Shown here in pieces: positions 3,552 to 44,869 of a stretch of DNA of 64,000 nt (its first letter is position 1; the number at the start of each line of letters is the position of its first letter). The notes under the pieces are model-generated. The model was not told the origin of the DNA. It worked only from the letters and a program-made list of their open reading frames with translations, and ran no database searches. Made by a program: the position numbers and the translations under genes. This DNA is from Membranipora membranacea (Eukaryota; Bryozoa; Gymnolaemata; Cheilostomatida; Membraniporidae): contig OU612066.1 of assembly GCA_914767715.1 (NCBI GenBank), forward strand, positions 20,990,283 through 21,054,282, read 5' to 3'.

Positions 3552-3926
3552 CTCTAATAACTCTATGGTAAATTATGATTGCCATGTAATATAACAGGCA
3601 TAATATAATATAACATAATAATAATATAACAGGCCCATAGTTCTAGGGGAGGCAGGGAGGCTATGCCTCCCTGAGAATATTAAATGCTAAAAATGCAGCA
3701 ACTGAAAATTCTATGTCGGAGTCAGCTCATTTTGGACTTTCATCTACTATTTCTATTCCTCAACATCTTTCGAGGCTAGTGATACATCACGCTCTGAAGG
3801 ATTATCGTCTCCTCTACCATATTTTCAAAACTACGGCCCTGGTATTATCTTAAGCTAATCCCTTGTGGGGTTATGCAGGGTCATCACGTCATTACATGTT
3901 CTTAAATCATATCTCTTTTCTAACAG

Positions 3927-10200: not shown

Positions 10201-13027
10201 TATGTCCAAATTAAAGTACTGGGGTATTTCTTTGGCAAAATCCAAACTTTGCTCAAAATCGTCTCATTTATTCAGAAATTGTTCTCAACAGAAGGCACAT
10301 ATTATGAGATACCAATAGAAAATATCTTGGTATAAGAATGAGATCTATCAATACGCAATAAAACAAACCTTGATAATTCCACTAGGAGTTGCATCCTCAG
10401 TTTCAAAGATGATACAACTTGCATCAGTCAATTACAAATCTGATTAGCCTATATCAGATGTCAAAGGTCGCATGATGGAATTGTCACTCACCATTTTGGC
10501 AAAGGCCAACAGAAGACAAACATTCGACGCAGTGAACCCTCAAACACTTTGAACATCCAAAAGAGACGACTTGATCTTTGTGAGTCTCACAGAACTTCTG
10601 CTGCTCTACTGTTGAGGTTGTTCTCATGTACTCCTTTATATTCTGAGTCTCATGATGCCAGTTCAACTCAATGTGAAGCTGTAATGACACAAGTATTCAA
10701 ATCTGAATCTTTATCACAGGTTAAGGAAAGTTTGCTTTCTCCCATTACACTTAGCTATCACATCGAGTTATTTATTTATTATATATAAAACACTGTTCAA
10801 ACTATAGCGGGATAAAACTCCTCAGTCACTGCCTAAAGCTCTGGGAGCGAGTGATAGAGGCGAGGATAAGGGAAATGAGTAAGATCAGTGGCAGGCAGTA
10901 TGGCTTCTAGAAAGGGAAGTCAACAACACAGCCCATGTTTTGTTTGAGAGTACTCCAGGTAAAGATGAGGGAACATCAAACGGACTTACATATGTTTTTT
11001 GTCGACCTAGAGAAGGCGTATGATACAGTATGTACCTAGAGACCTAATCTGGTACTGTCTGAGGAAGCGTGGAGTTCCTGAGACATATGTGAGTGCAATC
11101 AAAGACATGTACAAGGACTGCAAAACATCAGATGTGACAAGTGTAGGTGAAACAGATAAGATTGTGATAGAAGTAGGATTACATCAAGGATCTGCACTTA
11201 GCCCTTTCCTTTTCATATTGATCTTGGGTGTCATCACCGAGGAGATTCAGGAGGACACGCCGTGGGCAATGCTGTTTGCTGACGACCTTGTTCTTTGCGA
11301 TGAAACTAGGGAGAGGATGGAAGAGACACTGGAAAAATGGAGGGGGTGTTTAGAAGATGCAGGAGTAAAAGTAAGTAGGCCAAAGACAGAACATCTACCG
11401 CCAGCCGGAAACCTACAAAGGACAGAAATGAAGAAGTATGATGGAGAAGGTTCAACTGATCTGCCGCAGGTATCAACATTCAAATACCTGGGAACCACAA
11501 TAGATCAAGAGGGAGGATGCGGAATAGAGATTGCAAAGAGTATAGAGAAGGCATGGAATAGATGGAGAGAGTTGACAGGAGTGCTTTGCGATAAGAAAAT
11601 TCCCACCAAGCTCAAGGTTCTATTGTACAAGACGGCAATAAAACCTACACTGATGTATGGAAATGAGATCTGGCCACTAACTCAAAGACAAGAAGACAAG
11701 ATAAGTGCAACTGAGATGAGGATGCTCCGACACATTTATAATATAGACTGGGAAGGGCATAATAACAAATGAGAGTATAAGGGAGGAGGCCAAAATAGAA
11801 GCGATTGCAATAAGTATGAGGAGGAGACGTCTTCAATGGTATGGACATGTACGCAGGAGGAGATAGGGAGGAAGATATTAGAATGGTGGCTGAGATGAGA
11901 ATACAGGGAAAGAGAAAGAGAGGGAGGCCAAAGAAAAGATGGATGGATACAGCGAAGGATGACATGCTGAGATGGGGCCTCTCAGATGAAGATGTTGATG
12001 ATAGAATCAGATGGCATTCTCTGATAGAACTTGGTGCCCTGCAGGACCGCCACCCATCCCGGAACACGGCGGACTAGATGAGAGATATAAAACACTCCAT
12101 TTATCGCTGATATTTTATAAAACTACTTCTCAAAATTGCCTAACAGACACACAGCCACAGGTTCTCGATTAGTATTTACCTTCTGATGAGCAGCACAGTA
12201 CTTGTGCTCGCAGTTCAGACAATAAGTGTTGGCAGTCATCTTGAGTTTTCCACTTTTCTCACACGGCTCACAGAATGTAGCAGGATGAACATTCTCTAAG
12301 GCTGAGGGAAGATTGTCTATCACCACTTTGAACTTGTTTCTGCAAATCAAAAAATGTTGAGCATTAAACTAAATCAATCTTCCAACCATGTGGCCGGTAC
12401 CATCAAGCCAACCATCCCACCTAGACAATCCCGAAACTCATCCCACTTATTCTATCCTGTCAGCTATCCCACCAACACTGCCCCGCCCCCTTTCCTGGAC
12501 AACAGGAAGTTTGGTGAATGAAATGTTTTAAATTGGCTACAGATTAATGATGTTAATCATCTGACTCGATTAATTAAAAGTCACATGCCTTATTACTTAT
12601 CCCGAAGCATAGGCGGCAAAATTTTAGTCTGTGCCAGGTTGCTCTCTGCTTGCAGGCAGGTCAGAGCACACCTGGGGGCCAACCAAACCCCAAATATGTT
12701 GAATCTGTGTGGAGCTACACACCAATATGATATATTGTTGATAGTTCAAATCAGAGACTGATTGCAATACTGTTATTAGAAACACTTTCATATTAGATGC
12801 TCTGTGAACCTCGATACTTACTGACAAACCCTACATTCGATCACATCAGTCTTCTTGAGTTGCCTCCTCAGGCAAGTCTCACAGCATACATGAGTACAGG
12901 GCAGAAACATTGGGTTATGGATAAACCCCTCTTCTTCAAGGCAGTTTCCACATGTTACCAGATGTGGCGCATCTTCTGCTACTGAGACGGCCATTTTTCT
13001 TATGGGATGTTGTGTCACTCAGTGGAT
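7233..13027 (-). CDS. TRIM protein: RING, two B-boxes, coiled coil, NHL-like propeller (copy 1)
   Basis: Eight exons on the minus strand: 13027-12822 (ATG at 12994), 12339-12180, 10678-10492, 9862-9666, 9514-9344, 8846-8657, 8435-7695 and 7369-7233. All junctions keep frame and give 651 aa. The RING is complete: C15, C18, C33, H35, C38, C41, C54, C57. Exon 2 has a B-box-1-like cluster (CEPC, YCLNC, YCAAH), and exon 3 a second B-box (CETH, CSKC, CVEC). Residues ~174-296 are charged and helical, a likely coiled coil. Residues ~360-651 carry repeated strand motifs such as GVTYVGL, DRLYIL and KRITIYNLNG, fitting an NHL-like beta-propeller. The role is inferred as an E3 ubiquitin ligase; the substrate is unknown. 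Intron 2 holds a retrotransposon. It is divergent from gene A copy 1 and paralogous to the gene at 51772-56143. Confidence 0.85.
10795..12084 (+). mobile_element. Truncated non-LTR retrotransposon inserted in TRIM intron 2
   Basis: Encodes reverse-transcriptase motifs: VDLEKAYDTV, HQGSALSPFLF, the catalytic FADDLVL and FKYLG. The frame is broken by a small insertion near 11025 and frameshifts near 11760 and 11860, and continues as RKRGRPKKRWMD to a stop at about 12077. The 12 bp ATATAAAACACT occurs on both sides (10783-10794 and 12085-12096). The paralogous TRIM intron near 55190-55202 has a single copy and no insert, which proves the insertion. There is no poly(A). The 5' end is truncated within the RT domain and the element is oriented opposite to the TRIM gene. 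An RTE-related clade is possible but not certain. Confidence 0.85.
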
Positions 13028-13494
13028 CTAAAAGCATAAGTAAATGATCGACATAATATTGCTAATGACAATACCTAGAACAAGAATATCAGGGGAGGCC
13101 CCGCCTTTCCTTCTGTTGGAGGGCTTGCTCGCTCAGGTGAAGGCGCACATTGCCATCTATAATAAACCAAGAAGCACATCCGAGTGTTACCACAAAAGTG
13201 AGGAGACTCTTTTAAATTCGCTCTTTCTCCCAGCCCCTCCCAAACAATGAATTTCATTTGCAATTTGTGACCATGACCTGTGTATGTATTTAAACAGAAG
13301 GTTGACTACAAATCTGGTAATATAGCTCGCCATAATTGAGATCTCAGTTGGTTGACTATAAAATGCCGCAATTTGCTACTCTAATCCCTAATTAGAGTAA
13401 GCAGTGATACAAAACTGAATAAGGCGATTAAAAGTTCAACACCCTAAAAGAGTTAGAGGGAGTATCTAACACCTTGATTGTACATACTACTGAC

Positions 13495-13625
13495 CTGATA
13501 TTCTCAATGGTTATGTCCTGCAATCTCTCTGTGTGTAGTTATAACTAAATCTCCACTGCTTGTTACTAACTTCCTTGTTCAAGCTGTGACTGCAGACTGC
13601 TGTGTAAGAAGTTAACTGCCTGACA
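13495..13625 (-). promoter_or_regulatory. Probable non-coding first exon of TRIM copy 1, proximal version
   Basis: On the minus strand a block containing AAGGAAGTTAGTAAC ends in GAATATCAG followed by GTCAGTAG, a usable donor. It has no ATG and lies upstream of the coding exon, whose acceptor is at 13027. The same block recurs at about 14217-14335 and twice upstream of TRIM copy 3. The exon's 5' limit is not resolved. A TATAAA-like string lies just upstream near 13692-13699 (minus strand). Confidence 0.4.
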
Positions 13626-14216
13626 AATAAGCATAACAAAACTGTGACAACAGGGAAATCCATGTGGCAGTTTCAATTTTTTAACACACAGTTTATATGT
13701 GATTGACTGATGGAGGTTAACCTGTAAGGGTTATCAATTACTCACTACTTATCAGTCTCATTCAATGAAAGGGCTGATATGGACTCAAAGGAATTTATAT
13801 TAGCTGGGGTATATTTTTATCACACTGACAAGTGATTCTAAAGTGGGTCAGAAAATGAGAGAAAAAATGAGGACACTCTTTTATATCCCACTTTCTTTCC
13901 CCAAACACTGAATTAAAGTGGAAGGGGTCCGCTGTGAGCAAGCAAGACATGTGTATAATAGTACGAGGGAGTCTTAAAGTTAAGCATTCCGAAATGTAAG
14001 ATTAATGTATCATCGCAGAGCCCGCAGTAATAGAGATCACAGTACGGTTAACAATAGAATGCAATAACCTTCATATCAATGAAGTTACACTTATTAGCAA
14101 CCTAATCCCTAACCAGAGTAAGTTGTGATAAAGGACAACTGAAGGATGTAAGAGTTCAACACATCAATGAAATAGAGAGGTAAGAGTATCTAACACATTT
14201 AATGTAAACTACTGAC

Positions 14217-14335
14217 CTGATAATCTCAATGGTTGTCCTGTAAATTCTCTGCGTGTAGCTCTATCTAAATCACCACTGTTTGTTACTAACTTCCTTGTTC
14301 AAGCTGTGACTGCAGAATGCTGTGTGATAAGTTAA
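14217..14335 (-). promoter_or_regulatory. Probable non-coding first exon of TRIM copy 1, distal version
   Basis: Second copy of the block at 13495-13625, about 700 bp further upstream, with the same donor (GTCAGT). Retention of the donor and of the upstream ~100 bp in all four copies suggests alternative first exons or promoters rather than random repeats. Confidence 0.35.
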
Positions 14336-14339
14336 ACAG

Positions 14340-16165
14340 CCTCATCTTAATACTCCGAAACAAGACTGTCAGAGTGGTTATCTGTGTGTCAGTTTCAAAT
14401 CTCTAACATTAACAGTTATATCCAATCGATTGATTGATATTAACCTGCAAGCGTTATCGATCGCTGATATAACAGTGGTAGCGGTATTTTTAAACAATTT
14501 TCAGCTAACATATAGGCCTACTTTATCACACTTGATAATGATAATTCAAGTATAGTTGAATTGTTATAAAAACTTTATCAATTTGATAATATCTTATGTA
14601 CAAGGCTACAAAACATCGTTCTCTAACAAATTTATAAACTCTATTAGTAGGATATTATTAAAAGATTTCTGCTCAAAGCTGCACAAACAAAGATCGTCTT
14701 CTTACAATGCAGAAAGAAACAATTCTCATTGATGTCGGCTCAATTATATCTCAACATTGGAAAAGGATTCAGTGAACAGTTGACCAGGAGACCAGGAAGA
14801 GGTAAATTTGAAATAACCATCACCAGTCATGCCAGTCACAAAGTCACAAATATCTAGGAGCTTCATATCATAAGAACATAAAATAAGGTCCTGCTGATCC
14901 TCAGCTCATAAGGCTCACTGCGATGGGGGAAATGCCCAAGTTAATCTATCGGTTGCCTCGAGGTGGACATGACAGGATCTGTCACTGACATATCCAGGTG
15001 TGTAGATAAACTGGAATTGTGTGTTTAACAAGTTCATGAGGCTCCTGAGGACATTCCTGTCACAGCCATAACCCTGTAAATGACAAACTCCCAATCAGTG
15101 ACGATAAAATCACTGATATTTACATCCGTTCTAACAATTCACATTTAGGACGTTATTTGCTAACCTCAATGACAAAAATTCTGCACTCTTCCCTCTAGCA
15201 TTGCAATCAATCATCATATTGTGTTTTTCTGTTTTGAATTAGAAAACATGAAGTTTTTAAAGCTGATTCCAAATAACGAAACCTTTACACTCCAAGTCAG
15301 GCTATAGAACGGGTTCTGGGCCTGAAGAGAGGCAAGATTGTTGCAACGAAACCAACCAGCGTAATCGAAAGAGAACCTCCTATGCTGACGACACTATAAT
15401 TCCTACTGCGTCATTCTTACAATAAGAAGTTCCTACTGTAAATGAAGAAACCTCACAATATCTGTGTTGGTGAGCTAGCAATATAGCTTAAATCATTAAC
15501 TTGGCGGTCTAGTCATAGTCCTAGATGATAAAGCTATACAAATGAAATGACTTAGGAAATAGGAACCAGCCCTCTATCCTCTAGCTCCAAACTTACCGTT
15601 AGGGATTTGATTGTAATATATAATATAACCGAAAATAAAAATGTTGGACGTGCATTAGACTGATAAATGGTGAAGGTTTGATCATGACGAAATAACTATC
15701 TGATATCATGAGCAAATGTTGAAGGTTGGTCTATCCAGGGAGGGTGGGACACCCTGGTCTATCAATGTTATGTAATGTTTATTCTGCACAGACAAGGATT
15801 GTCTACTCACAACACGTAAGAAAATAATTATGGCCAATTATCAAGCAGCGCAACCGAAGATTGAATTATGAATCAACCCTGAGATAACAGGAGCCATTCC
15901 CCCGGTCATGCCAATCACGATGCCAGAATAATCTGAAAGAAGTAGGCAGCCATTGATATATATGCTATGTTCATACAAACCCTCATATATGTAACAAGGG
16001 AAAGGTTGAGAGGTTGTAAGAATTTAGGAAGATAATGTTAACATCATCACCATAATTGCATATATTTCATTTTGAATTTACCTAAAATATTCTTTATAAT
16101 AAATAATAATTACTATTTTTATCATTATGAGAGGACAACTTATAATCTGAGTCCAATGTTTCGAG
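14340..16165. other. Divergent intergenic spacer, cassette copy 1
   Basis: No gene seen. Much of it aligns with about 57300-59510 in copy 3, for example a GTCTATCCAGGGAGGGTGGG segment near 15730 and 59090. It separates the 5' ends of the TRIM gene (minus) and gene A (plus). Confidence 0.5.
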
Positions 16166-16169
16166 TATG

Positions 16170-16326
16170 TCCAACAATTGAAGGAGATGCGCCATGACAC
16201 AACATTTAGCGCAATGATGACTGAATGTTGTGTGCAACAGTCAGAAAAAAGCAACCGACTAAACAAGCTGTGTTTCTGCTATTCTCTGTAAAAATCTAAA
16301 GAAATCTGAGTGATATCTACTTGAAC
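16170..16326 (+). promoter_or_regulatory. Conserved proximal upstream block of gene A copy 1
   Basis: The ~150 bp before the gene A start codon contain GGAGATGCGCCATGACACAA and AATGATGACTGAATGTTG. Almost the same sequence precedes copies 2 (41440-41580) and 3 (59510-59664), although copy 2 is otherwise quite diverged. It probably holds the core promoter and 5' UTR. No TATA box is evident. Confidence 0.4.
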
Positions 16327-19300
16327 ATGTCTTCTTATAACGAATATAATCAACAACCTGAAATGTACAGAACTGCCATGTAAGTTTACTTGTCATCCTC
16401 ATTACTACTGTTAATAAATTTATAGTAGGCAATTTATAATTCTTTTGCAATTATTCATTTATATTTTGGAGGGGCCTGAATTGTTTTGGCTAGGGGAAAA
16501 GCTTAAAATATTCACATTATTCATCAATGCATATATCAAAAAATAACCTATGCCATGACTGTAAACTCCATAAAAGTCCATCAGGTTTTTCTCAATGATT
16601 ATGTGTCATCAGCAGCATTACGCTATCAAAGATGATGCAATCGCTGCCTTCTGAGTGCACAACGACACAATGAGTAAGCAGTACAAGTAGTAGTGATACT
16701 ACTAGGTGGCTCTATGAGTGAGAGTTAAATCACATTTCATACAACTCAATCATTGTAGTAGTGAGGTAGTAGGCCGGAGGTTGTGGAGTAATATCAATGA
16801 TGATCACAATGGCCAGCAGCGGGATGTGAGTGAACGTGAGGATGTATTTTCATGCAAAAGCCAGAAAGGTGAGTCTGAGAATTTATACAGAGTGTTCTCA
16901 AATTTGAACAAAGCCCGATCCCAAAAAAGCAGTCTTGTTGCAAGTGAAGAAGCTCAGTTATGGTATATTGCAATCGATACAAATAGATCATCCGGATATA
17001 ATCACCAATTCTCTATTTAGCAACTTATTAAAACCCATTTCATTTTCAGAGTTAGATGCTGGATACCAGTCTGAGGAGGGAAGTATTTGGGACGATGAAG
17101 ATCAGTCAGATGAGGTCGTCCGTGGTAAATATCCTAAAATTAGGGAGTTTGTTATTATTTGGGAGTTATCTGTCCAGGACCAATGTGCGATGTCAAAATT
17201 ACTTTTGATATAAGTTAACATTTGGTTTATAATAATCAGCGCGGAAACATTCCATTATTCCGATAACAGAATTAGATTGAACCGAGTTAACCACCCAATC
17301 ATTGCAAAATAGAACAGACCTATAATGTATAGGCTATTTTTGAGCGATTGCAGAGGAGACACAACCTGATTGACATGAAGAGAGATCAGATTTAGATATC
17401 TTGTTCGTTTTTATTGAGATGATCCCACTCAAAATCGATGGTTATTTATGATATCTAGCATTTTAGTTCTTCCATTCTCAGATCCCAAAGACCTCTTGGA
17501 CGCAGAGTTTTCTTTCTCATTTGTTGAGTTCACTACAGACACATTATTTACCTCACTACTGTATGACAGCCTCCATCAGATTCATGAAGATTCTCTTCAA
17601 ATAAATTCACCTGACTCGTCTTTGCGAATACCTGAATATCAAAATATGGCACATGATGTAATGTGAGTACATCGTATTTAATTGTGTGCATATTCTTATG
17701 TGTTTTTTTATTTTTATATTATTATCTTCACATCATGGTATGAGGCACACTGGCTAATGTTATTTGGCTTTCTCTCATTAGCACCTCTCTCAAATCATGA
17801 ACTCAAACAAATCTATCGCTCAAAAAAGCATGATTGCTTTTCTGAATTAGCAGTTGCAGTAATCATACTAATTATCTGCTCTTGATATTCTATTCACTGG
17901 AAATAGGCCTAATTGGGTTATTTCTGTGTAATTTTCTAGTCCTGATGACCGTTTTGGTTATCTTGAAATGGAGACGGAAACTCCTCTGAATCTCAGTCTC
18001 CTGGAATTTGCCAATGAACTGATGCAGTTAGAAGATCTCGAAACATCACTTTCAACACCATTCTATCAGATCAACTCGTATGAGTGTATAACGTAAGTCT
18101 ACTTTGCACAACACATCCACTGTGGGTCGACAAACTGTCGATGTAAGCTACATCCCAAAAAAAGACACCGATTCATATTAATTATTATGAGAGTCCAAAG
18201 ATAAGATACAGATTTCTGTAAGACCTAATGTCTGCCTATGCCTGTTGTTTTTTCAACTTTGATCATAATTGAAGTTTAAATACAACACATACATTGTTCT
18301 GTTTTTTTTTTCCAGGAATGAGAACAATGGAAAAGCTGATCTGTTGCTCAGCCCTGAAGTGGGTTCTGATCATAATTTGTCATCCACAACTCGTCAGTTA
18401 CGATATATCAAAGATCTGAGTGTCTCATTCAATGACAGCTTCCTTGAGCTTACTAACAATCATCTGCAGCCAGACCTTGACAAATCATTCCAGACACCAG
18501 CTGAATATGATACGCTGGATACTATAATGTAAGTATGTTCGCAATATGTCGATTTGCCGAATCTCTTTTAAATCAAGGAATATCAAAAAGTATCCCATAA
18601 TGCAATTGCATTGAAAACATTAAAATATGTAATCTTGGAGAACTCAGGCCCTATTGCTATTTAAGTCCAATCTAGAGATCTGACCGCATACCAAATTCTA
18701 AGGATTCTATAAACAATAGTACCGCAACAACTATAAAGCCAACAGCTAAATACATATACACATATATTATTATTTTAATTTGTCATGTTTAAAAAATTTG
18801 CTTCTCATTCACAGAGCTGCAATTGTATATTCTGAAGATGAGTTGGAGAGTGCAACGAAGGAACATACGAAAGATTTACTTGAAGTTACTCAGGGTGAGT
18901 AAGATAACTTTACGGATAATATTGCTTGAATCTGGTTATTTCTGTTGCATGGGACAAAATAAACAAAATACAAACACATGTGTCTATTTGCCTAGCTGAC
19001 AATAATCACTTCATCAACTCGGAAAGCAAAGATTCCCTGATTCAGTAGGTGACCCCTTAAAGATGCTCATTGCTCTGAAGGCTAAGCTCTTCAAATCAGA
19101 TTACTTGTTGACAAGGAGGAATAGCTCAATACTTTAACCTTGTTTCAGAACTAACGGATATGGCTCCCAAAGTCAATGTAAAAATCAAACCTGAACAAGC
19201 TACATGGGTGGAGCATGAAAGTAATCATACTCTGTGTGATACGACTACTGATAAATTACGAGTCTATGATAAACGATATCGGAACACAACAAACAGAAAC

Positions 19301-19408
19301 ACAACTCACAAAGCTCAGGCTGGTATAAAGAGACGAGTGACCAAATGTTTCAAGATGGTCAAGACTTTTGTGAGGAATGTTTTCTCGAAATTATCTCACA
19401 GAGCTTAA
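16327..19408 (+). CDS. Gene A copy 1: uncharacterised 374-aa protein
   Basis: Eight exons with clean GT-AG junctions: 16327-16379, 16759-16868, 17050-17124, 17482-17662, 17940-18092, 18316-18528, 18815-18894 and 19149-19408. They join in frame to 374 aa. I do not recognise the family. The N-terminal two thirds are acidic and serine-rich, with patches such as SEEGSIWDDEDQSDE and ETPLNLSLLEFANELMQLED that look like short helices in a mostly disordered chain. The last ~30 residues are strongly basic and could form an amphipathic helix (GIKRRVTKCFKMVKTFVRN), possibly a nuclear-localisation, nucleic-acid-binding or membrane-binding tail. There is no signal peptide. AATAAA at 19649 is a likely polyadenylation signal. 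Two paralogues lie at 41581-44868 and 59665-62766. Confidence 0.75.
16545..16715 (+). promoter_or_regulatory. Highly conserved block in gene A intron 1, copy 1
   Basis: This intronic stretch, from CCATGACTG to the near-palindromic AGTAGTGATACTACTAGG, is about as similar between copies 1 and 2 as any exon, or more so. Its counterparts are about 41825-41990 and 59885-60055. It may be an enhancer, an alternative promoter, or an intron-encoded small RNA (a TGATGA-like box and CTGA about 60 nt apart). Confidence 0.35.
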
Positions 19409-19718
19409 CCGTGTTTCCATAAATATGGTTTATTTACATGCACTAATACGGGTGCGCAGTTTATTTTTTGTACATGCAGGGCTAGTTTATGAGCAGTTTT
19501 ATTGATGATTCCCATTATACCATTATACCTTCATGGCTACAGTGATTAGAGATTTATTAATCAATTTTTTATGACCGTGCAGTGTTGCACTCCAATTTGC
19601 ATTCTACAGCCTCAGTCATTTTGTTGCATGCACTTGTCTTACTGTTCCAATAAAAATCATGGAAAGCGAATTACATTGTCTTGTATATGAAACAAACTCA
19701 CCTTATCTGCGCTGGTAT

Positions 19719-19727
19719 ATGACAAGC
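19719..19727 (+). repeat. Target-site duplication, left of giant transposon
   Basis: ATGACAAGC, repeated exactly at 31666-31674. The uninserted counterpart in copy 3 (near 63161-63170) has a single related ACGACAAGC. Confidence 0.85.
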
Positions 19728-19828
19728 TAGTTAAAGAGCTCTAACTCCGGTGGTTCAGTGGCATTACATTATCATCTCTCCCCTCCGTTAGAGAAAACAT
19801 CTCTATATATAAGGAGTTGTGTGCCCCT
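19728..19828 (+). repeat. Left terminal inverted repeat, 101 bp
   Basis: Identical base for base to the reverse complement of 31565-31665. Identity stops immediately inside. Confidence 0.9.
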
Positions 19829-20072
19829 GTATAAATCCTGATGACTCATTTGTAGCCTAAGTAACCAGTAACCAGTTTGGGCTTCACTAATTTATTTTGA
19901 CCTTGACCCTTTTTTCATCATCATTTTGTTGGGTAATTCCCAGGGAAAATAATGGTTTTTATTCATCATTGATTCATTGGTAGGAAAATGAATTTTTTAA
20001 CATTCTCCTATTTCCATCTCCTTCTGATCATTTCTGATTGATACTGATACACCTCATGGAATTATGTCTTAG

Positions 20073-23000
20073 AGTGAAGGAACTAGCAGTCTGGAAGTCT
20101 CTACTAATAGTGAGTATAAATGTTCTTTGTTTTGAAATTGATGGGTCAAGATAGATAGATAAAAAAGAAAATGTGAGGAGACTCAGACTGAGTGAACGTT
20201 GGTAACTTAGTCCTGAGACTGTGTGATTATAATTATTAATATTAAGATTTATGTGATCTGAGATGAGAAAAGATACATAAGTTGACTGATATATTGCAGA
20301 GCCTATATTAATATATACATAATAAGACCAGGGAGTATCAACCTAGGTTGTTGTGTCCTGCTAGTAGGCCTAGCTAGTGACTAGTGGGTTTATGCTAAGA
20401 AGAATGTTCCTGTTGGATTTATAAATCAAAGTTTATTTATTTGATTACATTACAGTGGAGGATACAGTTACTCTGACTGGATCTATTATTCTGGCAGAGG
20501 ATAATGAAACTGATGGACAAGAGCCGCAGACTAGTCAAACTAAAAGTGAGAGTATAGCAGAGGATCAAGGAACTGATGGACAGGAACAGCAATCCAGTCA
20601 ACCTCCTCCTAATAGGAACAACAAGAAAATTGAGGACATATCGGTATGTAGTCTAGTCTAAATAAACTGAAAAATACCTTACTGTCAGTTTGTCAGCCAA
20701 AAATAACATGGATTGGTTATCCTGATCCATACATTATTATCAGTCTTTATGACTAAAACTAAAACTGGCACATGATGGGATGATTAAAATATTTACTGAG
20801 GAGATCTGACATGGGTAATATAAAAATTGTTCATCAAAGAATGATTTGCAATCTTTAATCACATTTCTTATCACAATCTTGTAACCACGTTGTTCTTTCG
20901 GCATACAGAATTTCCTGACTACGAGGTTCAGAATAGAGAAAGGGGCAGAGACCACTAAGGCACGAGTGGTGCATGTTGTTCACAGCCAATATGACGCCGA
21001 AGCATCACCTGCTGTAATAGGAAGGGCCGTGAGTGGGGCTTTTGGAAAGAAGCTTCATAACCATGGCAAAAGATGGTGAGTACTGTACTGACCCTACCAG
21101 ACTAAATGCTTGACAAGTTTCGCCCATAAATTTATATACAGTGTACTGTTTCGTCTAGCTTATTTTTACTCACAGTGCATAAATTAAGGTAGCCTATCTT
21201 CTAATTTTGGCAGTACTGGTAGCAAAGTGTCAACCCTAGACAATCGCCATTATTCACAGAAATTAAATGGGTTGTAATGGTTTAATTTCGGTGAACTGGT
21301 TACAAAAAAATGAGGTGATAACTGCTATTGTCAAGCTGTGATCAAAACTAGAGCTGCATAGAGCAGAGCCAGAGAAGATTTCAGGATCATGGGTTATATT
21401 ATGTCTTCGTAAAAGTTTCATTGACAATGTGTTTGATATAAGACTATTGACCTATTGAGCCCACTCATTGTCATGTCATTTTATGTGGAATTTTACAGCA
21501 AAGTAAGCTATCCTGGTCTGATGGAGCACACTGTGCAAAAAGCTACAGCTAAAGTATCTTCTCTCACAACCACCACAGACTTCTCTGATGTACAAGTCAC
21601 AAGACACAAAAGGCAGCTTAGTGATACCAGCAGCAGCTCAGAACCAAAGAAAGTACCAAAACCAATGAGAGAGACTCGCTCGCCACCCTATCTAGACAAT
21701 TACGAATTACCAAACATTCAAAAAGGATGCAAATTCACTCCTATCCAATCCTCTCCTTTCGTAATGAAGTCAAGGCAAACACAAACAATGCCACAGGTGC
21801 TGGGTGGGTCTTATACAATCAAGACCGCTGCTGCCTGCACTCAACAAGCTTCAATAGATTCAAAGAGGACGGGATATAACATAGCGATGGTGAGCAAAGT
21901 TTCTCAGCTCTATAGCTTTCTGTTTCTTTAAAAACGCAACACCAAGCACCAAAGATATTGTTACCGTATACTGATAATTGAGAGCACTTTGAAAAAAAGA
22001 CATTAACAGTAGAATATGCCAGCGTGTAACTATGTTCTATCTAAAGCCTATGTTGGTAACGCCCATGTTATCCGTTATTACCAAATTGCACTAATACACC
22101 TGAACTGTGTGCTGATTGGTAGCTTTTTCTTATAATAGAACTTATCACTAGAAGAAGCCAGATTCATCGGTGAATTAAGGAAAAATAGTAGAAATGGAGT
22201 GAAGTACATGATAAAGGAAGGTCTGTTTCCTGATATACAATCCGCAGTTACAGAGTACACATGCGAACAGGTACAGACTGAGATGAAGTGCTATGCCGCC
22301 ATCGAGGAAAGTGTAATGAGGAAGTCTAGTGCTGCAGAAATGGAGAGTTTCAGCTTTGCAGTAAGTCATATCGATCGACATGCTGCTCTTTGTAGACACA
22401 CATTAAAACACCGATGGCAATGTCGTAAAAACCCATATATAATAAACTCATAGAGCTAACATACACACTAACATACACAAATTGATGCACAGGTGCCAGC
22501 TGTATGTTAGCTCTATGAATAAACGACATTCTAGGGATAATGATTGTTTGATCCAAACATATCTACAAGGACTCTATATAGTGAAAATCTCAAGCTGGTT
22601 TCTGCTCAAGACTTGGAATCATACCCCAGCCATAGTAAAAGCTCTGAAAGCTGAAGAAAGCACAGAGAGCATAGCAAGCTTATCGTTATATTGAGAGATT
22701 TAAGAGGCTTTTGAGGGGAGGGGGTCACTAACCTCATCACATCTTGTCATATATAGTTCACAATAGGGTATGATTCCAATTCTACCGGTTTCTGCACCAA
22801 ATGTCAGTAATTAGTTGACAGTGTTTTACTATATGATATATATGATGTAGTGTTGACACTGTAGTTTATAAGTGAGTACTCACTATCGATGCCCTACTTA
22901 CTATATTGATATTTTATTTTGTGTCAATTGTACGCTTCTTGTAGAATCAATCACTTGAAGCAATTGCATTCAGGTGCCGTTTTAAATCACTGTTAGGCCA

Positions 23001-26000
23001 TATCTTAGTCTGTATGGCTGAGAGATGATTGGAATTGACCATGCACTCCGGAGCCCTGATTCAGATTCTTCATTGTTGATAAGTTGTTGTTGAATATCCT
23101 AATACTGGTAAATCTAGTCTATTTGACTGTTTTATTTTTCAATGCTCTCTCTGTTGCAGAGCTGCTGGCAGGAATTTCAGGATCACTTACCAACATTAAC
23201 TAGAGTCATTGTGTCAGCTTGTACGAGAAAAGACCAGGACAACCGTAAGCTGAAAACAAAGGAGTCCCTCATACCCCCGATAGCTATGACTGTTGGCAAG
23301 TGTGTCGGCATTTACAGTAGTACAATGTCGGCAGTGCGAACTATGTACAGTCTAATCCTCTCCGACGGTGGAATAAGAGATGCTTGTATGAACAGATTGG
23401 CGAGACTTTATGATACTATAACACATCAAAGCCTACTTACTAAACTGAATGACATGTCCACTCGTTACAATAAACTTCTAGACGACTGGAAGTCACAACT
23501 CCAAGAATACTCTATTGTTATTGACAACGTTGATATATTTGTCCGGCCAAGAAGGGAATGTAAGGAGAAGAGTAACATTATGAACCACATGGTTCAGGCC
23601 ATCGCTGTCAGTGAGAGGGTTAAACCTGATGCTAGTATCAGTCAGGCAGCACGGATTCCCATAGACGATTTAAAGGCGCGTGATGTATATCCTACTCAAT
23701 CAGATGACATAACATTGAAGGAGATGATGGTAGCGAAAGTGCTCGAGATTATAGCCAGACTCCCTGCTCTTAAGGAAGTACCTCTAAAATCACCATCTGA
23801 ATCGCACAAGTACTCTGCAGAGACCAGCAAAAAGACCAACATAGTTAGTATGATTATTAGTATTCATCATTTAACTCCACGGACCGACTCTAACCCCGTT
23901 TGACCTACATTTGTATGTAGCTTATCTGGGTTATTGGATAAAAGTAAAATCTCTCATAATTTGACATAGGCCTAGTTGGTAAGTTCCTAGCATGTGTTTG
24001 AGGTTAGTGACATGCCCCCAGAAGCACCATGATATTGAAAACTATCGGTTTCGGATTTTTGGGCTAGCTTAAATTAGCCTTGGAACTTTTTATATAATTT
24101 TCATTGGTGGGGTTTTTTGCGGGTTATTGCCACCATGACCTATATTATGAGCTAGTCGACACCTGATGATAGTTGTCAACTCAGCAATCTCAGCTTTCGT
24201 TAGCTTTTTTTAACAGGCTTGTGGTACGAGTCGTAATATTTGACCCAGGAATCTGGTAATTCTCTTTTTGATTATAGTTAAGTTGCTATAGTGATTTTCA
24301 GGTACATCTTGGAGTTCTAAAGAAGAATGAAAATGTAAAGGAAGAGTTGCTGTATTGTTTGAAAGATTATCATAAGCTTGCAGAGGACAAGAACAGTGAA
24401 GACCTTCTACATAAACTATGTGTTGGTGAGTGATTTAAGCGTTAAGTACCATTGAGTTAACTAAACGCACAAAGATGTATGTATAATAGGGGCACCTGAT
24501 TTCGTTCTTCACATGCACTGGTAAAGACAGAGTGCCATAACTATCCCTTTTTATGGGCATACTGGGACTCTACATCACTGGGTTTTACTTCAAGTGCACA
24601 AGACGGGATACATTAGTCATGCGAACAATATGATGCTGTAGAATGAGTGTAGGCAGGCTGATGCTGATAGTCGTCATTGCCCAAACTGCAAGTCGCAAAA
24701 AAATCTTCGTGAAATGAGTTCAATGTTATCTTAATACAGGGGATTATTTGACATTTGAGAGAGGCCAACAGGTGCTGAACACCCAGTGCGATGGTAAAAC
24801 TCCGAGAGCTAGACTCGAGGGCTTGATGATGGCTATGGCTGATTTTCATGTTCAAATGAATTTCCTCAAGATGATCTATGACACTCTCTTCAAGGTAATA
24901 ATTTGTATTGTTACTATACTGTCATTTGGGTCCTGAATTAGCCTGCATGTTTTTACCCGTGGTACACTTGGTAATCTATGCCACTTATTTAGAGATGTTA
25001 AGACATTTTTATATTTACAGGGCGATTCTCAACCATCCACTGGAACCCTCAGTCACGCAAAGAACTTCCTAAATGCTAGAAATGTGACAGCTAACCCAGC
25101 AACCCAGTACTACAACTGTGGAGCACTCTTTGACAAGGTTTTTCACGCCTATATATATACAGGTAAGTGTTCAAGAGAGAAATATTTATTGTACATGTAC
25201 TTGGTTCTACAATGATTATTCCATGACATCCAATCAAAGTAAGTTTTTGTTTGAAAATGCCTGTTGCACCTACAAGGTAGACGGTTGCTGGCATTATTTT
25301 GGAAAGCTGGGTTAAATGACCTGATATTGGTAAATACTTTGTTGCTTGAATGCAATAAGAAAGTGGTTTAATGTACATGTTTTTATTTAAAGCTGCAGTC
25401 AAAGAACTGGGTCTATTGTCACTCGATGATGAGAAAGGTAAATATGTAACTCCAGAAACAGTAGAGAGAGCAGCTCGGCGTATTGTGGATATGTATGTAG
25501 ATATATCAGTGCCTGATTTAGAAGAAACAGGAAAGATCAGGTAAGCTAGCAAAAATCATTGGAGGGAAATTATCAGTAAAAAATGTATATAGAATTTGAT
25601 ATGACTTAAATAGGCCATTGAACCTCCACTATTTCATTATATTGAATTGTTGTGTCTCAGTGTTAAGAATAAATGCTGGTCATGGTCACATATATGATGA
25701 TATCCCAAAAATGGGTCTGTGCTCTTTTCCCTATTCCCCGGATGTATATTCAGTGTTGCTTGTGGTTTTATTTGTCGCTGTATGTGTCGTAGGTGTTGTC
25801 ACTGTCCGAAGAAGTACACCACAAAATCTAATCTCAGAAAGCACCACCAGCTGATGCATCCGGACCTTGATATGACTGACGATGAGCAAGGTGATGCTGT
25901 GTTTAATCACACGTGCTTGGTTATTGTCTACGGCCTGCTTAGATCTCTACACAACAGATCAATTCAACTAGGGAATGGAGAGCAGATTATGCTATTCTAT

Positions 26001-27574
26001 AGGTAAGTTAAAGAGATCTGATCTCTTGAACCGTTGTGTGCCAACAGCTTTCACAAATTGCAGTGATTTTGCAGTGATTCAGCTCCAGCGGTGATTATGG
26101 GAGTTGTCGCACAACAGTTCAGGAGCACACCACCTCTATAAAACACTGATTATAGCCAGAACCTAATAAAATAATAATAAGTATTGGTAACAATTTACTA
26201 GGTTATTGCTTTTAGCGAAGAGATTTGCAGTTATGTTCTTACTTCCAGTTTGTCAACCGTTTTTACATATCAGATAACCACCTACCGCATCATGTAGCTA
26301 GTTTAGTAGTCATACAGGCGTCTATTATATTGTATAATGTCTATGTTTGTAACTTCTTAACATTCTACACTTTTTTCTATTTCTTTAGGTATATGTTTAT
26401 AATGTTCAAGGCAAATGGAAAATACAAATATGGTTGCGGGCTTCTGGAAACACTCATTCAGGTTGAAGTGCTACCGGCACCAATGAGCCTCCGACTTGTA
26501 TGGAACCGGTTTTTCAATTCGTATTCGAAGTCAGATACAAATATACCTCTCGATCTTGCGGTACGACTTATATTACTATGTGTAGTTTATGATATTGGCG
26601 ATCGCATTCTATTTTTGTTTTAAAATGGCACAAAACCAAAGGCATGAAAAAAAAAAAGAATACAATCAAAGTTTACACAAGTTGAATAGAAAAGACAATA
26701 CTCAAGCCCATCATAAACACACTGCCCATATCCATCACAAGCGGCGGCCATCACCCAGTGCTAAGAATGGGTCAGTGTGACCTGATGTGCATATCGGTCA
26801 TCATAATTCATTTATCTTAACCTCGTTTCAATCTATGTATGGATAAATGTCCATAAGTTCCATCATAGAATTTGGCCCTCCGCTTGTGAAAGCATGATTT
26901 AGCCTGTATATTTGTTTGTTTAAACAATACCACACTATGCAAGTTTGGTTTGTGGTTGGAAGTCTTGGTCAACGATATGAGATAATAAAGTTTTTTAAGT
27001 TAGACTTGCTCCACACACTCCGATCATAATAGGACAACTCTGAATGCTGCTGTTCTACTTTCTATCATCACAAAACTAAAACAATTGTGTTATTTTTCCT
27101 TTTTAGCTGGAACATGAAAATCGGGAGTTTAAGAAAAGACTGAAGACCTATTATGGTGTTTACACGCAGCCACACATTGACAGGATTTCTCGTGCTCGGG
27201 GAGTCCTTGTTAAAATAATCAAACGACTAGATCATGAACTAGATTATCATCAAGGTTCCAAACCAGCGAAGAGAGACGACAAGTCAATGAATGACATAAA
27301 ACTTCTGGCAGAGAAGTATCAGAAAGAGGACCTGCTAACACTATCTTCGACATCTCCGAGATCCCATTCACCAACCCTGCTCACTGTGCCAGCAAACCCT
27401 ATTTCTGGCACCAACGGAAAATCTCTCCGTCAATGGATGGACAGTCGGATGGAACTTATCAGAGTCCGGCACTATTATCAGCAGTACAGCCAGGTGGCAG
27501 CCTCCTTTGTTGATAGTACATCCTCATCCATATATGGTAATTTATATACCGAGTGGGCCGACCGCCCAGTGTAG
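20073..27574 (+). CDS. Transposase-like protein (DUF6589-type) with internal C2H2 finger
   Basis: Thirteen exons: 20073-20109, 20456-20643, 20909-21075, 21499-21889, 22139-22360, 23160-23843, 24302-24425, 24740-24894, 25021-25162, 25393-25540, 25793-26002, 26389-26560 and 27107-27574. All junctions keep frame (1,035 codons plus stop). The real start is uncertain; an ATG forms across the first junction. The segments YSIVIDNVDIF (~450), GDYLTFERGQ (~605), PSTGTLSHAKNFL and LRLVWNRFFNS...NIPLDLALEHENREFKK (~865-890) match my recollection of DUF6589-containing proteins. A canonical C2H2 finger (C-x2-C-x12-H-x4-H, CHCPKKYTTKSNLRKHHQLMH) lies at ~755-775. I infer a split RNase H-like catalytic core with D (IDNVD), D (GDYL) and E (LEHEN). 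The N-terminal ~330 residues are polar and likely disordered. Its product probably acts on the element's TIRs. Confidence 0.75.
22449..22519. repeat. Small inverted repeat in intron 5 of the transposase-like gene
   Basis: CATAGAGCTAACATACA and its inverted counterpart TGTATGTTAGCTCTATG are separated by about 35 bp. Possibly a tiny foldback element. Confidence 0.55.
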
Positions 27575-28042
27575 TAAATCCAATCATTGATCCAAATCTG
27601 CTTTCAGATATTTATGACATTATGGTTAATGTTTTTAATACAGATGCTACAACAAAATATTAAAGCCTTGCTATAATTAGGTTTTTGGTGCACATCATGG
27701 AAACAAAAACGTCAGGTCATACTAATATTTCTGGTTCAATATTATCTGAGAATGTCCGGCACTATTATCAGCAGTACAGCCAGGCAGCCTCCTTTGTTGA
27801 TAGTACATCCTCATCCATATATGGTAATTTATATACCGAGTGGGGCCGACCGCCCAGTGTAGTTAATCCAATCATTGATTTAAATCTCAGTATTTTCAGA
27901 TATTTATGACATTATTGTTTATATTTAATACAGATGCTACAACAAAATTTTAAAGCCTTGCTATTATTAGGTTCTCAGTGCACATCATGGTAACAAAAAC
28001 GTCAGTACATACTAGTATTTCTGTTTCAATATAATCTGAGAA
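27469..28042 (+). repeat. Tandem duplication of the transposase gene's 3' end
   Basis: A unit of ~280 bp starting GTCCGGCACTATTATCAGCA covers the last ~35 codons, the stop and part of the 3' UTR (from 27470). It is repeated from 27754 with small indels, and a third unit begins near 28040 (GAATGTCCAGC). The second unit is not in frame with the gene. This duplication is inside the transposon. Confidence 0.8.
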
Positions 28043-28172
28043 TGTCCAGCTACTAAACTTTGCCTATCTGTGAATATAACAATAATAACAATGATGTCAA
28101 ACTTGATAAAATTATATAGCAAATTGCCTAGCAAACATTGACACCAACTTACGACAAAGCTGAAATGCTAAG

Positions 28173-31100
28173 TCATTCATAAAAGACACTCTCATCGTCA
28201 TCATCCTCCAGATCCTCCGGCTGATCAGCCGTGATGATCGGCTCACTATCACTGAATGACTCAGTGATAGAAGAATCATATGAATTTTGTATACAATCCT
28301 TTACTTCGCAAATCACATCTTCACATATATCACAACAAAGTTTCTGATCGGTGGGCTTTGTACAGTGAAACTTAGATAACAAACTAGAACGTAAGCATGA
28401 TACTTTCACTTTACTATACTCATCCATGGTGTCATCAAGAGTCCGCCCACTTGCCATCCTCGGAAATGTAAGGAGAATCGAATGGGCATGTATTTTAGGT
28501 TCTCTTGCAGCTCTTCCCGTTTCTTGAAGGAAAGCATCAGTTGTAGTTGGAGGTCCATAATGAATAACGTACTTGACCTGTGCCATGTTTATTCCCATCG
28601 AAAGGCTCTTGGAACAGAACACAATCTTAGTCTTCCCATCTGCCTTTGCCATATCCTCGATAACATCTTGCTTGATATCATGGTCAGTTAATAGATGATA
28701 CATGACACAGAGGCCTACTTTCTCCTTGTTGCCAAGTAGTTTGCCGTGATACATGACGTATTGGTATGCATTGGTCAGATAATCTAGATTATTGAAGAAT
28801 ATCAGCATCCGAGGCAGCTGATCTGCGGCGGATGTGCGTACAAGCTCACACAGCCATCTGAAATCTTCAGGTATTTCTCCTTTAACACCAAGTGTATGAT
28901 ACCTATAAAACAAATAGCCAGTAAACCGATTACACAGCTGGCTGGTTAACTGAATGACGTGTGCTCCTTATATCCCTGAACGTATCAACTCAAAATCAAT
29001 TTAGTCTGCTATGGAAGTGGAGTTGCTTCCACTTGCAACTGACAAGAGTACACATTCTCCAAATTATCAAATAATGCTGTTGCAATTGTGTACCGTACGT
29101 AGTGGTATGCATGACAATTATACATCTGAAGATAGGAGAAGAGCATCTGTGTGATCATATGATGATATAAAATTGGTGAATGATCTATTCAGTTTGTGAT
29201 ATGTTTCATACATACGTAATGTTCCGTTTGTTGATATCCACTTTCACGATCTTGGGTGATCGCAGATGTAATGAGGATGACACACTAGCGATAACATCAT
29301 CTGGTGCAGTGGCCGAGAGGCAGACAAATGGTGCATGACTGATAAAAGCTCTTAGCTGTCCCAGCTCACCGTAAGCCTTTCTGAATGCCGTTTTGTCAGC
29401 AGATGATAGGCCCCTACAAAAAGCAAAGGATGCAGCATAATTTTATGACCTATAGGTTTGAGTGTCAAACCAGACTAGGCCAGTAGTATGTGTTTCTAGC
29501 TCAATGCTATGCAAGAAGGAAAATCCCATCTATGAAGATTGAATAAAAAAGATAAGCCGGATAGCTTTCAAAATCATGCTGTGGGGCGGGCTTGTCACAA
29601 ACTCCCAACACATGTTAGGACACATTTGGTTGGTTTTACAGTCCATCAAGGGCCTCTTGTGATTTATAACATAGCAGCATATATAACATATAGCATATAG
29701 CATTTATAACATATAACATATCAGCGGGACAGGTAACTCAAATTAAAAATGTTGTATGGGAGCTTACCATGCCTCAACCATGTGGAATTCATCTATGAAA
29801 ACCACTTTGATTGCCAACTTCTGTATAACTCTGCGTCCACAGCTGGTACTTAGTATGTTTTCCGGGCTTGAAAATATTATTACTGCGGATAGAGCTTCTG
29901 TAAGGGTTGATGTAGTCAAGTGGATAGCTGATATCTGTGGGATTACTTCCTTTATCTTCAGTATGGCATCCTTGATGAGGGCTACGAGAGGCATAATCAC
30001 GATGAACTGTGCCGATATCTTGAAAAAGAAATAATGTTATGAGCGACACTAACGGTCAGACCTACATGTATATGCAAAGCGTTGAAAATGGTCACGGATC
30101 GTCGTACCAACTCGCAGCTGCATAGTCCCAACTATAGAGATAATATTATCTCTATATGGTCCCAACTCAAACTCGGCAATCAAAGTAAGACGAATAGTCG
30201 AGTATTTTCGCTTTCTGTCTTTTAGGGTTTCCAGCTTGATTTCCTAGTTTGGAGGCACAAGTAATTATGTGCCGTCATAGTGTAGCTAACTATAGTGATA
30301 CTTACATGGGTATTTAACATGAAAACACAGAGCAAATGTCAGCTTAATATTTTCATCACAGAGACACATTGGCCCTTTTAATAACATTATCCACCTAGAT
30401 AACCCCCCCCCCCCAAGTATAAGTACACACGACTTGGCAATGTTCCAATAAAGCGTTGTGCCCTACATTGAGTCATCACTGTGGAGAGTTTAACAGGTAT
30501 AGGATAGCTGGCTTCTGAGATTCATTTTTTATCCGCCTGCATCGCAAATTTGGCTTGGTGGATTTCGATGAGGATTATGACATAGCTCTACACAATGTGA
30601 AAGTATCAAAAGTGTATATCAAAAACCCTTCGAGTGGCGGCCAAAAATGTGTGTTGAATTTCCATGTAAGTACTACTATAGGCTATATATGAATGGCTGG
30701 CTGAAATAATTAAAACAATCCATCCATACCTTACTGCTTCCGGATGTTGAGGCACCAGGGTCATCACTGCTTTGTAGACTGATATCTCCAATAAGGGTAG
30801 ATAGGGTTTCAATATCAGGCATGTCCTCATGAGCTAGGTCTCTGTCAGGCCTGTTAGGGGTGCTATGACTTATAGTATCATGACAGTTGACTGGAATATG
30901 AGGATAATTATCACCATCATCAAAGTTACTCAAGTCACTGATGTCAGTAGTGACATTCGACTGCCATGTCTCATCTGGAGAATCACATTTGATATTGTAC
31001 CTACTCCCATCAAACAAGAATGGAGCAATTTGGAAAATAAGAGATTTTCCCCATCCTGTAGGAGCAACTGCGACACTATCATGTCCTTTCCAATAACTTC

Positions 31101-31179
31101 TAATTATGCCAATCTGCTCTTCTTTAGGCTCAAAGTCAAACACTTGTAGGGAAACAGATCTGATTGAGCCAGAGTTCAT
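28173..31179 (-). CDS. RecQ-like superfamily 2 DNA helicase of the transposon
   Basis: Four exons on the minus strand: 31179-30730, 30018-29768, 29413-29216 and 28902-28173. They join in frame to 542 aa from MNSGSIR. Motif 0 (EPKEEQ), motif I APTGWGKS (~39-46), motif II DEFH (~226-229, where most RecQ proteins have DEAH), motif III SATAP (~267), a motif V-like SMGIN (~401) and motif VI QETGRAAR (~426-433) are all present. A zinc-binding segment follows (C469, CCDIC ~489-493). The C-terminus is acidic (DDDDES) and there is no RQC or HRDC domain. The insert between motifs I and Ia is polar and unusually long. It is convergent with the transposase-like gene (about 600 bp between stops) and presumably assists transposition or repair of the element. 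Confidence 0.85.
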
Positions 31180-31564
31180 TGTGTTGGTAGAGCAAGAAAA
31201 TCCTCTAGTTAGAACAAACAGAAATGAAGTCAGAAAGTCCTGCAAAAATTTTATCAAACTCAAGCTGTGCAAGGTCTCACCTAACCTGACCTGTGATGAG
31301 TGAAGCAGACAGTGTGAAACAGGAAAACAACGAGTCCATCTGAAAATGATCACCCTATCACAAAGTTTATGATTTTGCTAGAAATTCTAGGCTGAATTTT
31401 TTCAAAACTCTTTCTTTGGCATTTATATTCTCATAAAAGCAACAGCCCAGCTAACCATAGATATTTTCAGAATATTTGAAAAATTCTACATCCATTGTGT
31501 CTAATTATATTGCATTGCAGATAGGAACTTTCCAGTAAACTGGAATATTCAGTTTTTGATAAAA

Positions 31565-31665
31565 AGGGGCACACAACTCCTTATATATAGAGATGTTTTC
31601 TCTAACGGAGGGGAGAGATGATAATGTAATGCCACTGAACCACCGGAGTTAGAGCTCTTTAACTA
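31565..31665 (-). repeat. Right terminal inverted repeat, 101 bp
   Basis: Exact reverse complement of the left TIR, ending CTCTTTAACTA directly before the right target duplication. Confidence 0.9.
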
Positions 31666-31674
31666 ATGACAAGC
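31666..31674 (+). repeat. Target-site duplication, right of giant transposon
   Basis: ATGACAAGC, identical to 19719-19727, then AAGTTCTGAG as in the empty site of copy 3. Confidence 0.85.
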
Positions 31675-32222
31675 AAGTTCTGAGTGGAGGTTTTGATGTT
31701 ATCCTGCTACAGCTGTGAAGTATCTTGAGTAATAATCCATACCAAGCTGATGGATAATCCAAAAGTATGACTTAATTCTGATCTTTCTGTAATGATCATG
31801 ATTTATCATGTACTGAGTACATCTGCTATTCATATATTCCAAAGAGCACTTTATCTGAAGTATCTTGGTGCATAATCCACACTGGAGCTGTCGTATAATC
31901 TAAAAGTAGCGATTATTCCGATGATTCCGGAATGAGCTCAAATTCAGTTTTTTTATCCTGATTGAAGTTAAGTCGTCATGATGAATCCCGTAATCTGTGT
32001 TTCTGTTGTTAAAATCCCTGCAGGTCAGACAGAGGCTTGGTATGTAATATAAGATATATCCTCCAGTTTCTGTTTTTTCTGAAAAATGGAGGGATTCTTA
32101 ATCATAACAAATGATCAGTTCAGAGTGCTTTTGTACTAAATTTTACTGTTATGGAAAATAAATTCATGAATCGCCTAGTATGCTTCATATTTCATGAGGA
32201 TGCTGGACAATATATGTGATGT
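31675..32222. repeat. 3' flank of gene A cassette, copy 1 (repeat-rich, non-coding)
   Basis: Aligns with about 63171-63722 (copy 3) and more loosely with 45220-45870 (copy 2). It contains an internal degenerate tandem of ~145 bp built around GAAGTATCTTG...ATAATCCA...GATAATCC. No coding frame. A related piece of its distal part recurs at about 34205-34376, on the other side of the pseudogene. Confidence 0.65.
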
Positions 32223-32228
32223 GATGAA

Positions 32229-39594: not shown

Positions 39595-41435
39595 CCTGGA
39601 TAAATAAATATAAAGTTCAGATGAAGGTTACCAGATGAACATGTTACAAAAAAAAATAGAAAACTAAATAAAATAAAACCTAACTTATTGTTTGATGAAA
39701 ATATCAATGCTCCTACATTAATTTTATTGATTCAATAAATATATGGAGGTTTTTTATGAACTGTGAGGGGCCTATTCTGAAGCTAATCCAGGATCACCCT
39801 CACATTAGCTAGCTAGCTGGACATTAAGCCACTGCCCAATAGGCCATTACCCATAGGACAACTGTCCTAAAGGCCACTACCCATACGGCCACTGCCTAAA
39901 AGACCACAACCCATAGGCCAAAACCCAGGGGGTTAGGTAAACAAATGTCTGACAAAAGTTAGTATTTGTATTAACTATAGTCATACAATTTCCTACAGAG
40001 TAGCAAAAATTCATTGTGTTTGTTCAATATATAATTGTGTTTATATATATATATATATATCCTAGAGGAGTAAAGTATTAATTATATTTAAGGCTAAATA
40101 ACATTTACTCAAATTTCTACGGTATAAATATCAGCTAGCTAGCCAAAAGCAAGTGCTAGATAACATGAAGAGACCCCCAAACTACCCCTAACTAAACTGA
40201 AGCGAAATATTCTAAAAAAAATTCTTAAAACAAAAGTGCTGCATACTAACCAAATACAGGCGAACTGAGAATTATTAACATATCCTACTAAGACCAATAA
40301 ACAGTACAATGATTTAATGCCAAAACGTGGGAACAGTGAGCTCATATGCGATGGTGCAAGGGGCTGGAAAAATTCATCATGAAAGTAAAGGTACCCCAAA
40401 CCCCTCTAGTGGGGTGGGAGTCCACCCAACGATTCACTTGGCACCAATTGTCTTGCATAAAATATCTAGTGCTAACAGATTGCTAACCTAAATGATTATC
40501 CCATCTAACCGTCCCGTGAATAATATTGAGTGGAGTTGGGACATGGGTGGTAATATGGTAAAGTTAGATGGTTGAAAAATTTTCTTGACAAACGTGGCAT
40601 GGGAAAATAAATATCAAATCTTTAGAAAAATAATTTCACTTTTATTTACACTTTTGAACCTCTGAGTCTTTAATCAGCAGCCCTTTTGTTTTTACTAAGT
40701 AGTAACGGACAGAATTCAGGGTATTCTGAGGGAGCAAATGCCTGCAAGTGTAATTTGTTGAATGTTTGATAACAGAGTGCTGCAAAATCTTACTTGCAGC
40801 TGTTAGAACACTCTAAGTAGAATAAAGTGTGCCTCTGCCAAGGCTAGTTGCTTCATTTAGACTATCAAGCAAGCAAACACTTTTTAAAATAATACGCCAA
40901 AAAACTCAAGTCATGTACTTTGTAGGTGTTATGAATAGTATTTCCTACTACACTGGTAAATATTCCTAATCAGATTAGGTTTATCAAACACTGACATGTC
41001 TTAGCTGGTGTTTGATATGAGCTCAGCCCATGGCCCTTCTCTAAATATAATACCTCAGTGTGTATATCCTTCCAGTTCTGAATAGGACAGTACAGCTAGA
41101 TACATTTTAGTGGATCTGAAAATAAAATGACTTTATCATGAAAATTCTGCAGCAGGTTTGTTGATTGGTTTTGATGTGGACTTTAGATAGGAGGGGGCAG
41201 GATGAAAATGGTCAGAATTTAGGGTTTGTTAACATCATCACAATAACCTGAATGATTGCTATCATATTGTTTTAATATGAATTATCATTGAGGTATGTAT
41301 AAATAAATATATATAAATATTTTTATTCATATCAATGTAATTTATCAACCAATGAGTGATTATAATTATTTATGTTATTCGAAATGAGAGGACAACTTTC
41401 AATCAAATACGAATGATTTTGGGTAATGATGGCCA
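39595..41435. other. Repeat-rich spacer, no gene supported
   Basis: Contains a degenerate short tandem repeat (39826-39932), an AT run (about 40041-40061) and a fragment similar to the left-edge exon (about 40830-40880). Expected N-terminal exons of the DUF4708-like gene were looked for on the minus strand and not found. Confidence 0.5.
39826..39932. repeat. Degenerate ~15 bp tandem repeat
   Basis: About seven imperfect units around AGGCCACTACCCAT. Not coding. Confidence 0.7.
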
Positions 41436-41439
41436 ACAA

Positions 41440-41580
41440 TTGAAGGAGATGCGCCATGACACAACATTTAGCACAATGATGACTGAATGTTGAGCGCAAC
41501 AATCAGAAATAAGCAACCGACTGAATAAGCTGTGTTTCTGTGATTCTCTGTGAAATTCTCTAAGTGATAGCTGTATGAAC
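41440..41580 (+). promoter_or_regulatory. Conserved proximal upstream block of gene A copy 2
   Basis: Same block as before copies 1 and 3 (GGAGATGCGCCATGACACAA), retained although the coding exons of copy 2 have diverged. Confidence 0.4.
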
Positions 41581-44868: not shown

Positions 44869-44869
44869 T

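Follow-up and report, generated by a model that had tools for sequence, protein, structure and literature searches.

The 64,000-bp stretch of Membranipora membranacea DNA analysed here (the window) contains a DNA transposon which pairs a DUF6589-like transposase with a RecQ-like helicase, and the question raised by this locus is whether such an element represents an undescribed superfamily or a helicase-bearing branch of a known one, the two ideas put forward in the first-pass annotation. The span first given for the element, 19719-31674, places it correctly but takes in both copies of its target site duplication (TSD), and the element proper ranges from 19728 to 31665 (11,938 bp). The TSD is a 9-bp sequence, ATGACAAGC, whose left copy (19719-19727) is identical to the right copy (31666-31674). 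The terminal inverted repeats (TIRs) have 101 bp, the left one at 19728-19828 on the forward strand, beginning TAGTTAAAGAGCTC, and the right one at 31565-31665 on the reverse strand, and they are identical at 101 of 101 positions, so that both the perfect TIRs and the 9-bp duplication described from the first lines of evidence are borne out. When the first 22 bases of the TIR are searched in the window with up to three mismatches, only the two element ends match, and two matches are found in none of 100 shuffles. A paralogous flank without the insertion is located at 62895-63725 on the forward strand: when the flanks of the element are fused at a single TSD copy and compared with it, 803 of 831 aligned columns match, and at 63162-63170 the paralogue shows an uninterrupted ACGACAAGC, which is a single TSD copy with one mismatch with respect to ATGACAAGC and corresponds to the empty site that had been proposed near 63162.

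Other repeats are also present in the window. A segmental duplication links 7685-19732 with 52096-63175, and then 31668-32227 with 63164-63725, showing about 92-97% identity in the longest blocks, and more diverged pieces of it are found at 41384-45811. The stretch 10795-12084, which is absent from the segmental duplicate, contains a 253-aa open frame (11011-11772) that by eye resembles a fragment of a LINE-type reverse transcriptase with a FADD motif. Another stretch of 2,525 bp (3341-5865) is bounded by 211-bp inverted repeats, which are 98% identical and begin GGAAGAGCTTGTTAGC, and a 9-bp sequence, GAAATCAAG, is duplicated without mismatch on its two sides. This stretch is possibly a second TIR transposon, perhaps non-autonomous, with a 9-bp duplication and with ends unlike those of the main element.

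The transposase gene of the main element is on the forward strand (20456-27574) and contains 12 coding exons (20456-20643, 20909-21075, 21499-21889, 22139-22360, 23160-23843, 24302-24425, 24740-24894, 25021-25162, 25393-25540, 25793-26002, 26389-26560 and 27107-27574) separated by GT-AG introns, which after splicing give an open frame of 1023 aa. Its ATG is probably split by the first intron, with the A at 20109, at the end of a 5' exon, and the TG at 20456; the bases around the 5' side of this putative start codon are identical in the second full-length copy of the genome, described below. The spliced protein matches the Pfam family DUF6589 with an E value of 1.1e-42 over residues 495-918 (profile positions 8-407 of 410), as against a best E value of 0.0046 for the unspliced single exons, which supports the exon model; the profile search also upholds the identification of a DUF6589-like protein. 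Residues D445, D594 and E870 form a candidate catalytic triad. D445 (IDNVD; motif DNVD) is kept in eight of eight aligned loci, D594 (GDYLT; motif GD[YW]L) in five of the five loci which have this exon aligned, and E870 (LEHEN) in eight of eight, with E872 kept in seven of eight, several of these loci being near-copies. The rechecked residue alignment favours E870 over E872 as the putative catalytic glutamate. Two loci, L040 and L041, seemingly lack the second D, but there the alignment runs into intron sequence, and a GT donor is present at the same position. The exon at 25793-26002 encodes, from residue 742, a C2H2-type zinc finger, CCHCPKKYTTKSNLRKHHQLMHP (Pfam zf-C2H2, sub-threshold E value of 0.056), which is located between the candidate second D and the E. 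The spacing of its C and H residues is similar in most of the aligned loci, with a stop inside the finger in L045 and the last H replaced in L058. No relative of the transposase was found at an E value of 0.01 among the limited candidates of the protein collection, nor in the scan of the genome-contig and viral-contig collections, and the TIR pattern shows no exact match in the viral-contig collection.

The second gene is on the reverse strand (28173-31179) and contains four exons (31179-30730, 30018-29768, 29413-29216 and 28902-28173) with GT-AG introns, encoding a RecQ-like superfamily 2 helicase of 542 aa. This protein shows the Pfam domains DEAD (E value of 2.8e-12) and Helicase_C (E value of 9.4e-13), and its best match among solved structures is WRN (E value of 3.3e-21), WRN and RecQ being the closest. 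The reading of this protein as a RecQ-like helicase, as well as the arrangement of two convergent multi-exon genes which are intact when spliced, was confirmed. A tandem duplication of about 290 bp (27464-28055) extends from the last part of the transposase gene into the intergenic space.

In the host genome searched (339 Mb in 18 contigs), the left end region of the element, 19728-19833, has at least 63 matches. The TIR search for further full-length copies with a 9-bp duplication, which the first-pass annotation had suggested, found one on C4: it has 11,846 bp and its own 9-bp TSD, GAGCCGTCT, and its identity to the window element is 98.5% in one of its two main blocks and 99.0% in the other. 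Two shortened copies are found, one on C3 (7,297 bp, TSD GGTTTGTGG) and the other on C11 (7,433 bp, TSD GATCTTAGA), together with 11 palindromic MITEs of 107-218 bp, which consist mostly or entirely of element ends and are flanked by duplications that match in 9 of 9 bp in eight cases and in 8 of 9 bp in three. The 16 two-ended insertions, which are the window element, the copies on C4, C3 and C11, an element on C6 described below and the 11 MITEs sampled from the left-end matches, show an exact 9-bp TSD in 13 cases and one matching in 8 of 9 bp in three; they are not fully independent, because the pairs L018/L019, which are near-identical duplications, and L025/L026, which are reverse-complement duplications, may each be one duplicated insertion. 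None of the 13 exact duplications is longer than 9 bp. Loci L013-L017, which show a single end only within 10 kb, were left out of this count. The MITE L028 (C2:37266798-37267015) is a 218-bp palindrome with two pairs of TIR tips; it is bounded by a single 9-bp duplication and has no internal one, which gives the impression of doubled ends.

Comparison of the window copy with the C4 copy, gaps excluded, shows differences at 21 of 4683 coding positions and at 68 of 7142 non-coding positions (Fisher p 0.002). The helicase frame of the C4 copy is intact and shows four non-synonymous and eight synonymous codon differences with respect to the window copy, a non-synonymous share below the approximately 75% expected without selection (p 0.0025). 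The transposase frame of the C4 copy is disrupted by a 17-bp deletion within an exon, so that the window copy is the only one of the two full-length copies with both frames open. The open frames and the identical TIR arms support the view that the window element is autonomous-looking, and it is apparently a recent insertion.

Transposase and helicase genes travel together in this genome. Host genome searches gave at least 59 matches to the transposase (45 of 190 candidates scored), at least 82 to the helicase (80 of 150 candidates scored) and 19 to the DUF6589 family (31 of 31 candidates scored); clustered by place, the transposase and DUF6589 matches form at least 28 loci, and the helicase matches at least 42. 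A helicase locus is found at 12 kb or less from 16 of the 28 transposase loci found, in convergent orientation in all 16, and the chance expectation for a helicase within 12 kb is about 0.3% per locus. This outcome goes against the refutation foreseen in the first-pass annotation, by which other genomic copies would show the two genes apart. Four of the paired loci belong to the element's own family (window, C3, C4 and C11), and among the other 12 some look like mutual copies (C6:13.95M, C10:11.05M and C7:2.20M; C6:11.96M and C7:14.94M). The remaining 12 transposase loci, with no helicase match at 12 kb or less, comprise nine single matches and three loci with several matches: C5:27.16M, which is a truncated copy, C5:27.43M and C7:21.385M. 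In the latter, the region C7:21384558-21387636 contains several DUF6589 matches and shows no helicase within 12 kb; a similar region, C7:21361717-21364812, has a helicase match.

Diverged relatives are found in the same genome. A separate family is represented by a 13,910-bp element at C6:13946684-13960593, whose exon matches are 43-73% identical to those of the window element. It shows the same convergent gene pair, a TSD, GTACTAACC, and 96-bp TIRs which begin TAGTTTAAG, as opposed to TAGTTAAAG in the window element. The C7:14.94M locus is much more diverged, with 27% identity over residues 222-547, and neither TIR nor TSD was found in the 13 kb, and then 21 kb, searched there.

By these features, the window element is very probably an autonomous-looking and recently mobile TIR DNA transposon belonging to the AcademH lineage of Academ, or to a very close sister of it. 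It is most likely a new family of this known lineage, in which DUF6589 would be the transposase domain; this filing is made by features, AcademH being known here by its description, and DUF6589 would then be the Academ transposase. AcademH is the helicase-encoding lineage of Academ and, according to the title of the paper describing it, is found in animals and fungi (Kojima, 2020, Mob DNA 11:15). Its TSDs are of 9 or 10 bp and those of AcademX of 3 or 4 bp, a difference described as related to the helicase and the nuclease (Kojima, 2023, PMC10045372). A fungal survey, which reports AcademH in three groups of fungi, associates DEAD and Helicase_C with AcademH and KolobokH (PMC10799480). The window element has in common with AcademH a transposase together with a helicase, a duplication length of 9 or 10 bp (here 9) and the DEAD and Helicase_C domains, and no difference was found among the published features compared.

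AcademX would belong to the same superfamily if the AcademH filing is right, and it differs in its duplications of 3 or 4 bp and in having a nuclease in the place of the helicase, as against 9 bp and a helicase here. The AcademX nuclease is XPG. In the Pfam search neither of the two element proteins shows an XPG domain, and XPG_I has five matches genome-wide, none of them near the 28 transposase loci. AcademX was rejected by the duplication length of 9 bp and by the absence of XPG.

The alternative that survives best, although unlikely, is an undescribed superfamily defined by DUF6589, a RecQ helicase, TAGTT termini and a 9-bp TSD, which only converges with Academ. It would agree with the lack of any mention of DUF6589 in the literature searched, with a transposase that has no relative at the above threshold among the limited candidates of the protein collection, and with the absence of any sequence tie between this transposase and a named element. 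Against it, AcademH shares both the duplication length and the helicase and is reported in animals and in fungi, and the helicase domains of the window element are the very ones tied to AcademH and KolobokH. DUF6589 is common in fungi. The available portions of PMC12210899, PMC10294476, PMC12730594 and PMC8290104 contain nothing bearing on the relation between DUF6589 and Academ. A related reading, that several diverged families of elements with DUF6589 and a convergent helicase in one genome constitute their own superfamily, separate from Academ, is similarly improbable. Of the two ideas of the first-pass annotation, the undescribed superfamily is therefore unsupported, since a helicase-bearing Academ lineage with 9- or 10-bp duplications is already in print, and the helicase-bearing branch of a known superfamily is the better fit by the published AcademH features.

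It is very improbable that the element is a MuDR/MULE that captured a helicase. MuDR/MULE elements show 9-bp duplications and often long TIRs, as the window element does, and to our knowledge they have no helicase. However, the transposase family is different: the match to DUF6589 (E 1.1e-42) extends along nearly the entire profile, the Pfam search lists neither a MULE nor a mutator family up to an E value of 1, and the only occurrence of the comparison motif in residues 442-900 is DLLH at 585, upstream of the candidate second D. Furthermore, the helicase is not a recent capture, since its pairing with the transposase is seen at diverged loci. No more probable is the reading of the helicase as a host gene that was caught between the TIRs and is idle for the element, for which the 12 of 28 loci with no nearby helicase match could be adduced; against it speak the convergent arrangement seen at 16 of the 28 loci and the low number of non-synonymous differences between the window and C4 copies. 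Helitron and KolobokH, which are also helicase-bearing DNA transposons, are the least credible of all and were ruled out by duplication length and transposase family: Helitrons have no TIRs, and here perfect TIRs and a TSD are present and, in the Pfam search, no HUH or Rep family is listed for either protein. In Helitrons an HUH nuclease is joined with the helicase (PMC12730594), and KolobokH shares with the window element a DDE transposase and a RecQ helicase, which in Kolobok-1_CCri is encoded on the complementary strand, but Kolobok duplicates TTAA, of 4 bp (PMC9587614), whereas the duplications of the window element family are of 9 bp and varied in sequence.

In an AcademH-type element, as this one very probably is, the DUF6589-containing protein would be a DDE transposase. 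It would bind the TIRs of 101 bp, cleave the DNA at the TAGTT...AACTA ends and transfer these ends to target strands with a stagger of 9 bp; that insertion is staggered is shown by the 9-bp duplications. The RecQ-type helicase would be its dedicated partner, and may act by unwinding the ends or on intermediates of gap repair or strand transfer. An interrupted gap repair after excision would be consistent with the MITEs and shortened copies; these do not separate a cut-and-paste from a replicative route. The helicase recurs as a partner of the transposase and shows few non-synonymous changes, and its convergent pairing with the transposase at diverged loci argues that it may matter for transposition, in agreement with the published link between the helicase and duplications of 9-10 bp (Kojima, 2023, PMC10045372). 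The window element is a real transposon in unusually good condition, most likely of a published kind and not a new superfamily. The analysis suggests that DUF6589, an uncharacterised Pfam family, represents a transposase domain, a name it could be given in annotation. The window copy, whose ends are exact, whose empty site is present in the paralogous flank and whose two genes are open, would be suited to testing the function of a DDE transposon that bears a helicase.
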